DNA from: Oscillospiraceae bacterium
Lineage (GTDB): Bacteria > Bacillota > Clostridia > Oscillospirales > CAG-272
Direction: 5' to 3'
Assembly (NCBI GenBank): GCA_015065455.1
Contig: SVQI01000005.1
Coordinates: 35,736-99,735 of the forward strand
Length of the DNA: 64,000 nt
Position 1 is the first letter of the stretch; the number at the start of each line of letters is the position of its first letter. Made by a program: the position numbers and the translations under genes. The notes beneath the pieces were generated by a model. The model ran no database searches and was not told the DNA's origin. It was given only the letters and a program-made list of their open reading frames with translations. Shown piece after piece: positions 16,613-17,702 of this stretch.

Positions 16613-17110
16613 TTAAATATTTTTTATTTCTTCCTGGAGCTTTGCGTCTTTTGCCTTAACTCCTTCTGCCATTTTAATTTTTTCTTCTTCAAGTTTCTTT
16701 GCAAGTCCTTCATCGGAAAGCGCAATAATCTGTGCAGCAAGTATTGCCGCATTTGCGCAACCGTCAATCGCAACAGCCGCAACGGGTACACCGGGGGGCA
16801 TCATAATTGTGGAAAGGAGTGCATCCATACCGTCAAGTGCATCGCTTTTTATCGGAATGCCGATAACGGGAAGGGTTGTGTATGCAGCAAGAACGCCGCC
16901 GAGATGAGCTGCCTTACCTGCCGCGCTGATAATAACTCCGAAGCCGTTGCTTTTTGCATTTTTAGCAAATGCCGCCGCCTCATCGGGAGTTCTGTGGGCT
17001 GAATAAACGTGTGTTTCAAAGGGGATACCAAAGTACTTAAGTTTTTCAAGGCAATTCTTTACCTTGGGGAAATCGCTGTCGCTTCCCATAATAACAGCTG
17101 CTTTTAACAT
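16613..17110 (-). CDS. purE: N5-carboxyaminoimidazole ribonucleotide mutase
   Basis: Class I PurE, about 165 residues. The motifs are VIMGSDSDFP, HVYSAHRTPDEA and the loop GKAAHLGGVLAAYTTLPVIG. I choose the ATG at 17110, which follows AGGAGG (spacing 7); the in-frame codon at 17158 lies inside the upstream terminator hairpin. First structural gene of the operon, behind a leader ORF and attenuator-like terminator. purK, purC, purD, purL and purM are not in the window. Confidence 0.96.
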   Translation of the reverse strand: MLKAAVIMGSDSDFPKVKNCLEKLKYFGIPFETHVYSAHRTPDEAAAFAKNAKSNGFGVIISAAGKAAHLGGVLAAYTTLPVIGIPIKSDALDGMDALLSTIMMPPGVPVAAVAIDGCANAAILAAQIIALSDEGLAKKLEEEKIKMAEGVKAKDAKLQEEIKNI

Positions 17111-17142
17111 TACAAGTCCTCCTAGATTTACAATGATAGAAA

Positions 17143-17177
17143 AACGCAAAAAGGACATTCGGCTATGAATGTCCTTA
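17143..17177 (-). terminator. attenuator-like terminator upstream of purE
   Basis: On the minus strand a perfect 10-bp stem AAGGACATTC/GAATGTCCTT with a 6-base loop is followed by a T-rich tract. The stem foot includes the two A bases of the leader ORF stop codon, so a ribosome at the stop would cover the 5' arm and prevent the hairpin. This layout predicts translation-dependent readthrough into purE. Confidence 0.82.
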
Positions 17178-17294
17178 GGTTATTGCGTAAAAATTACACT
17201 TTTGGCGTGTGGTTTTTGAGAAAAGTCTGCAACACGGCTGTGTGTTACACTGTGATGAATGAACCGTTTTGTGTTTTTTTGCAAATACAGTCAT
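17175..17294 (-). CDS. 39-residue leader peptide upstream of purE
   Basis: An ATG at 17294 is preceded by GGAGG at a spacing of 9 and opens 39 codons, ending in TAA at 17175-17177, directly at the foot of the terminator. The product begins MTVFAKKHKTVHSSQC and continues with a CC pair and a fourth Cys near the end. It contains four Cys, three Gln, six Thr and several basic residues. It lies between a consensus promoter and an intrinsic terminator. I recognise no family. The position is that of an attenuator leader peptide, but no simple run of one regulatory codon is present. Confidence 0.68.
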   Translation of the reverse strand: MTVFAKKHKTVHSSQCNTQPCCRLFSKTTRQKCNFYAIT

Positions 17295-17330
17295 AAATCC
17301 TTTCCTCCGTAAATCACAAAATACATCAAT

Positions 17331-17359
17331 ATTATACATAATATATTTCTTCTTGTCAA
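17331..17359 (-). promoter_or_regulatory. sigma-A promoter of the leader ORF and purEFNH
   Basis: Minus-strand TTGACA (17354-17359), 17-bp spacer, TATAAT (17331-17336), both perfect. Transcription should start near 17324, about 30 bases before the leader ORF. No purine riboswitch core was seen between here and purE. Confidence 0.88.
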
Positions 17360-17478: not shown

Positions 17479-17702
17479 AGAAGAATAATGCGATGATCGG
17501 GAAAATGCCGTCATACGAGTGTTTGTAACCAGAGAGTGTATCGTGTTTGGTGGAAGATGCATACAAATGCAGACGGAAGTGCGCCCGTGAGCAGGTGTTA
17601 ATCGCACCCGTTTTGTCAGCGATACTTGACACGCAAGTTATAAACCGAAGTGGAACCGCGGATGTTTCGCCGCCTTTGAGTAATTCAAAGGTGTTTTTTT
17701 GT
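17479..17702 (+). promoter_or_regulatory. T-box riboswitch, cysteine specifier
   Basis: The leader has the AGAGAG element (17531-17536), a Stem I closed by CCGTC (17508-17512) with GACGG (17572-17576), and an upper helix TTTGTA with TACAAA. The 3' side of the loop between them reads TGC (17568-17570) followed by A: a cysteine codon. The T-box TGGAACCGCGG is at 17651-17661. An antiterminator (CGAAG with CTTTG, GCGG with CCGC) competes with the terminator stem CCTTTGA/TCAAAGG (17673-17691) followed by T7. Uncharged tRNA-Cys is predicted to switch on cysE-cysS. Confidence 0.93.

Follow-up and report, generated by a model that had tools for sequence, protein, structure and literature searches.

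A 39-codon leader frame ending on the terminator upstream of purEFNH: a candidate ribosome-occlusion attenuator in Clostridia

Purine operons are textbook cases for control by repressors and riboswitches. In the pyrBI and pyrE (rph) leaders of Escherichia coli, a translated frame ends at or crosses an intrinsic terminator and a ribosome nearby gives readthrough, the sequence of the peptide being unimportant. The purE leader described here resembles these in that its frame ends at an intrinsic terminator just upstream of genes for nucleotide biosynthesis, and in that its peptide appears to be dispensable, since divergence is about equal across the three codon positions; it differs in that it belongs to a purine operon, occurs in Clostridia, has no nucleotide-specific pause tract that we could find and, in its genus, has an excess of Cys codons. 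In E. coli, termination fell from about 90% to less than 10% once a stop codon that had lain 28 bp before a terminator was placed 5 bp before it, the repression of the terminator fading beyond a stop distance of about 27–30 nt, and ribosomes were considered unlikely to catch the polymerase within the first 100 bp without a polymerase pause (PMC4824070). In antibiotic-responsive attenuators of Firmicutes such as that of Bacillus subtilis vmlR, a uORF is likewise followed by an intrinsic terminator at which readthrough is set by the position of the ribosome, but there the signal is a drug-stalled ribosome and the gene is one for resistance (PMC9226507).

Short leader frames with Cys codons have also been described. 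The uORFC-8-2 attenuator of cysS in Rhodobacterales has tandem Cys codons at conserved positions together with RNA stems (PMC8632094), whereas the Cys codons of the purE leader are scattered, the genes are purine genes, there is no antiterminator and the predicted sign of control is opposite. The polycysteine leader ORFs of mycobacteria control Cys genes (Canestrari 2020, as cited in PMC13236596) and share with the purE leader a short frame with Cys codons, but not the position upstream of purine genes. The purE leader of this genus resembles attenuators of the trp and his type in having codons of one amino acid in excess, but it lacks a mutually exclusive antiterminator and the genes controlled are purEFNH, not those for synthesis or charging of Cys. 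Unlike arrest peptides of the TnaC type, it has no conserved residues near the stall site in the genus, although such residues are partly seen in other families. The ZMP/ZTP riboswitch (RF01750), which takes the same place before purE in much of the family, is a ligand-binding RNA without a frame. On this comparative evidence, the purE attenuator would stand apart both from the trp type, having no antiterminator, and from riboswitches, in needing a translated frame; it appears to be a new purine-operon form of an established type of switch. The papers searched contained no report of a uORF or of a ribosome-controlled attenuator before purE.

The window analysed, a stretch of 64,000 nucleotides from an Oscillospiraceae bacterium, carries the leader on its minus strand (Table 1). 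A preliminary description of the locus had reported a perfect sigma-A promoter and a 39-codon frame with a GGAGG site, and all of these elements are present. Its counts for the peptide (four Cys with one CC pair, three Gln and six Thr) are also correct. The 10-bp terminator stem does start in the TAA codon, the two A of which (TAA at 17177–17175) form stem bases 1 and 2, but the coordinates reported for it, 17153–17177, were off by 1–2 nt (17176–17151). Similarly, the distance of 33 bases from terminator to purE applies only if the count starts where the T tract ends; the purE ATG at 17110 is 40 nt 3′ of the stem, and this gap is too short for a separate promoter and ribosome binding site.

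Table 1. Features of the purE leader region; positions are those of the window.
Feature	Position	Strand	Remarks
Sigma-A-type promoter, TTGACA-N17-TATAAT	17331..17359	−	12/12 match to consensus
Shine–Dalgarno site of the leader frame, GGAGG	17304..17308	−	9 nt 5′ of the ATG at 17294
Leader frame, 39 codons and TAA (MTVFAKKHKTVHSSQCNTQPCCRLFSKTTRQKCNFYAIT)	17175..17294	−	39 codons in 4/4 congeners
Cys codon 16 (TGT)	17247..17249	−	In-frame Cys excess at genus level
Cys codons 21 and 22 (TGT TGC)	17229..17234	−	
Cys codon 33 (TGT), final Cys	17196..17198	−	Position observed; footprint presumed
Intrinsic terminator stem-loop, 10 bp, −13.0 kcal/mol, stem AAGGACATTC/GAATGTCCTT	17151..17176	−	Folding and congeners
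T-rich tail of the terminator (TTTGCGTTTTTCT)	17138..17150	−	
Shine–Dalgarno site of purE, AGGAGG	17118..17123	−	
purE, gene 1 of the purE-purF-purN-purH operon	16613..17110	−	

The sample of the genus comprised five genomes, four of which (the window species and three congeners) have purE, and the leader was present in all four. In each the promoter spacer is 17 nt and the distance from TATAAT to the ATG is 34–36 nt, the promoter and the first transcribed bases being well conserved and a purine-rich Shine–Dalgarno site being retained. The frame is exactly 39 codons long (120 nt with the stop) in 4/4 and its stop codon lies within −2 to +6 nt of a stem, GGACATTC/GAATGTCC, that is identical in the four species and occurs once per genome, with 0–6 nt separating the stop from GGACATTC; from this conserved stem to purE there is an untranslated spacer that varies from 42 to 52 nt. 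The invariance of the stem (in the window, L003, L004 and L005) beside a saturated frame is more than pairing alone requires.

The interior of the frame gave a very different picture. In ungapped comparisons, 21–32 of the 39 sites differed at each of codon positions 1, 2 and 3, which is near saturation, whereas at codon positions 1 and 2 of purE itself only 4–10% differed, and at third positions about 50%; the frame has thus been kept without its peptide. Only the window and G002 peptides were clearly more alike than shuffles (11 identical residues, P < 1e-4), with a second, weaker similarity between the window and G003 (P = 0.02). The C-terminal residues of the four peptides (NFYAIT, YASTAN, LTAQK and CKSIR) are not shared. 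No second copy of the leader was found in the genome, nor any similar leader before purD or purC of the genus. What the comparison shows, at the level of sequence, is selection on the open frame, its exact length, the position of the stop on the stem and the terminator, with the peptide sequence nearly free.

These results bear on several earlier ideas. That the peptide might sense a small molecule through its sequence is not supported, given the like divergence of the three codon positions and the unconserved last residues. Aligning the regions upstream of purE in relatives, which the preliminary description had proposed, showed that the frame, the overlap of stop and terminator and the Cys content are kept, but not the positions of the Cys codons. 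The same description would have taken equal rates of synonymous and non-synonymous change as a refutation. Equal rates are what we found, and they argue against a sequence-specific peptide; the need to translate the frame survives, because the open frame, its length and the position of its stop have been retained. Since the frame is conserved, it is probably translated; readthrough of the terminator of the purE leader is likewise presumed.

The comparison was extended to the purE upstream regions of about 180 genomes from the order, together with those of 64 named contigs taken from a wider collection. Many other genomes of the order have a promoter, a Shine–Dalgarno site and a frame of 18–59 codons that stops at or crosses a terminator before purE. 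For 37 leaders with a terminator, without a ZTP motif and with a Shine–Dalgarno site and ATG 45–165 nt upstream, the stop was at the base of the stem in 34, against 6.0 expected when the interior of the frame was shuffled with dinucleotides kept; the three exceptions had the stop 14 nt before the stem, the stop within it, or a frame running through it. Counted from genus labels, the layout is found in about 19 of 22 genera. A cultured relative, Massilioclostridium coli (L049), has it too, with 28 codons and the stop 2 nt before the stem. Frames of 15–60 codons led by a Shine–Dalgarno site and stopping at the base of a terminator preceded 10/54 purE genes but only 2/282 other genes of the same contigs. 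Constancy of codon number recurs in other genera, with 39 codons in g105, 38 in g106 despite 20–28 residue differences, and 27 in three species of g82 (24 in a fourth). Leaders of this class appear to be common among the purE leaders of this order of Clostridia, and the earlier proposal of a translation-controlled attenuator is borne out as a comparative pattern: in the genus the frame, its exact length, the stop–terminator overlap and the Cys codon content are all kept, and the layout extends to most of the genera tested. At a few loci (L168, L176, L231, L235 and L237) the frame crosses the terminator rather than stopping at its base, as in E. coli pyrBI.

With the covariance models of Rfam 15 no riboswitch was detected on the leader strand, either at the gathering threshold or at E values up to 5, the models for purine, PRPP, ppGpp and ZTP riboswitches included, which agrees with the earlier remark that none was visible. 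A large part of the window's family instead carries a ZMP/ZTP riboswitch (RF01750) near purE, so that the two kinds of switch seem able to replace one another; in the window's genus this riboswitch precedes a pyruvate-formate-lyase-like (pflB-like) gene, named from reading its protein (G000:C1:61002–61085, L164). RNA folding was done for the four congeneric species with the 5′ limit of free RNA shifted along the leader frame. The terminator formed in 4/4 species at each limit tried, and no conserved antiterminator or alternative pairing of the 5′ arm was found across the four. As the terminator forms every time, termination apparently occurs by default, and readthrough would be achieved most simply by a ribosome sitting on the 5′ arm. 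An ACGCA/TGCGT pairing, suggested previously as an antiterminator, was rejected: in the window species it lies outside the stem and extends the base of the terminator, thereby lengthening it, and it is absent from some congeners. In the window species GTCCTTTT, which is part of the 3′ arm of the terminator and the T tract, is able to pair with the purE Shine–Dalgarno site.

We consider it probable, from these sequence comparisons, that the purEFNH leader is a translation-dependent transcription attenuator working by ribosome occlusion, whatever the signal. RNA polymerase would initiate just 3′ of the promoter (17359–17331) and transcribe the leader with its 39-codon frame. If the end of the frame were free of ribosomes at the time of terminator synthesis, the 10-bp hairpin would form and transcription would stop; with the last codons or the stop occupied by a ribosome, the 5′ arm would be covered, the hairpin blocked and the polymerase able to continue into purE. 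A point against occlusion is that, in these Clostridia, the ribosome would have to match the polymerase within 120 nt. The signal is presumably either the supply of Cys-tRNA or the relative timing of polymerase and ribosome.

The case for Cys comes from the codon content of the leaders in the genus. Together they have 19 Cys, against 7.7 expected (SD 2.2; 0/4000 shuffles that kept the base composition at each codon position), and no other residue is in strong excess. TGY codons number 19 in frame but 1 and 5 in the other two frames (binomial P = 1.6e-5). The basis of this excess is one genus and four genomes, and Cys sensing as a rule for the whole order was rejected, as TGY codons there are no more frequent in frame than in another frame (counts of 74, 54 and 77 across the three frames), with an in-frame excess in the window's genus only. 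Rare codons in general were also rejected, the leader codons being rarer than those of genes but not clearly rarer than those of any open stretch of window DNA. A C-x4-C peptide motif was noticed by eye in several leaders, but the general Cys enrichment disappeared in the frame control, and the motif that stands out in frame is another one, G-I-x-A.

The positions of the Cys codons are not conserved (16, 21, 22 and 33 in the window; 6, 12, 19, 20 and 28; 4, 7, 8 and 32; and 8, 17, 22, 31, 33 and 35 in the other species), and in all four species the final one is 4–11 codons from the end of the frame. Judged from a normal footprint, the stem would stay uncovered if a ribosome stalled at that codon. 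The 4–6 scattered Cys codons, all of them 5′ of the occlusion zone, might then delay the ribosome when Cys-tRNA is scarce and so turn purine synthesis off. We tentatively regard the speed at which Cys codons are read as the most likely signal in the window's genus, while giving this specific signal a rather low probability. Against it, control of purine genes by Cys is unexpected, and a switch that goes off on Cys starvation would be the reverse of classical amino acid attenuation.

The Cys-tRNA reading shares occlusion with two others, in which RNA polymerase speed or an arrest peptide provides the signal; the likelihoods given for these two therefore concern the signal only. A kinetic attenuator like those of pyrBI and pyrE is given a rather low probability as well. 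Low ATP or GTP would slow the polymerase, the ribosome would catch up and purE would be read, whereas with plentiful purines the polymerase would run ahead of the ribosome and terminate; the fixed number of codons would serve as timing and the peptide would be irrelevant. This would suit a drifting peptide of fixed length and stop, its sign is the one expected for a purine operon, and it has both a precedent in pyrBI coupling (PMC4824070) and counterparts in the pyrBI-like frames that cross the terminator elsewhere (L168, L176, L231 and L237). However, the leader RNA, with 38–59% A+G depending on codon position, is not purine-rich, no purine tract shared by the leaders was seen, and the in-frame Cys excess would be left unexplained.

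An arrest peptide of the TnaC type that holds the ribosome at the stop is improbable as the signal in the window's genus, where no C-terminal residues are shared and all codon positions are near saturation; the layout with the stop on the stem, and the ZTP riboswitch near purE in much of the family, are nevertheless in keeping with it, and it may apply in other families. A G-[ILV]-x-A motif, in frame and mostly near the C terminus, occurs in 14/52 leader peptides against 2.6 expected; these peptides belong mostly to families f12, f13 and f24, and the motif is absent from the window's genus. In genus g106, four 38-codon frames retain GxIAYF at their end. The G-I-x-A-like peptides of these purE leaders are a candidate family of arrest peptides. 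Examples of such C-terminal sequences are AGIFAHK, SGIGAAK and QGISASKF, and the loci include L212, L230, L236, L242, L246, L254, L265, L276, L283 and L046.

A classical trp-type attenuator, in which stalling at Cys codons would favour an antiterminator and Cys starvation would turn purE on, could draw on the Cys codons with their CC pair and on the tandem-Cys uORF attenuators upstream of cysS in Rhodobacterales (PMC8632094), but is very improbable: no antiterminator is conserved, the terminator forms in the four species at all 5′ limits, ACGCA/TGCGT extends the stem rather than breaking it, and occupancy of the stop by a ribosome would hinder the terminator, not promote it. Equally hard to credit is a gene for a small protein, complete with a terminator, and purE transcribed independently since, ordinary as a terminator after a gene is, the peptide shows no conservation, the 42–52 nt between conserved stem and purE are too short for a promoter, and such frames cluster upstream of purE rather than of other genes.

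A further observation concerns the genes on the other side of the leader. A T-box leader (RF00230) lies at 17484–17680 of the window on the plus strand, upstream of cysE and cysS, with a score of 57.1 bits that is below the gathering score; by reading of the alignment, the triplet at its specifier position is UGC (Cys). The same T-box also occurs in the congener G004 (L034, 2249–2050), but neither of the remaining two congeners has it close to purE, and in two of the four species the cysE-cysS and purE operons lie side by side in divergent orientation. The purine and Cys pathways both consume serine-derived carbon, which might be the reason for a coupling of the two. More speculatively still, this one intergenic region might balance two serine-consuming pathways through tRNA-Cys: when Cys-tRNA is low the T-box would turn cysE-cysS on, while ribosomes stalled on the Cys-rich purE leader would shut down purine synthesis, which uses serine-derived glycine and formyl groups; and, more broadly, the whole order of Clostridia might rely on ribosome occlusion for the control of purE, with leader peptides that drift freely at a fixed length. 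We think this combined proposal unlikely to hold in full.

Whether transcription and translation are coupled in Gram-positive bacteria is disputed, and the purE leaders bear on the question. With a peptide that drifts and a codon count that stays fixed, they offer a natural test, in Gram-positives, of whether the position or timing of the ribosome can control a terminator without the identity of the peptide playing a part. The Cys excess, if confirmed, would link sulfur and purine metabolism. A similar arrangement was seen before an unrelated gene in Ruminococcus-like genomes (L037 and L038), where a 22-codon frame (MHFTLRENSIFG..CISVFKNR) stops 4 nt before a terminator that lies upstream of an acetyltransferase-like gene.
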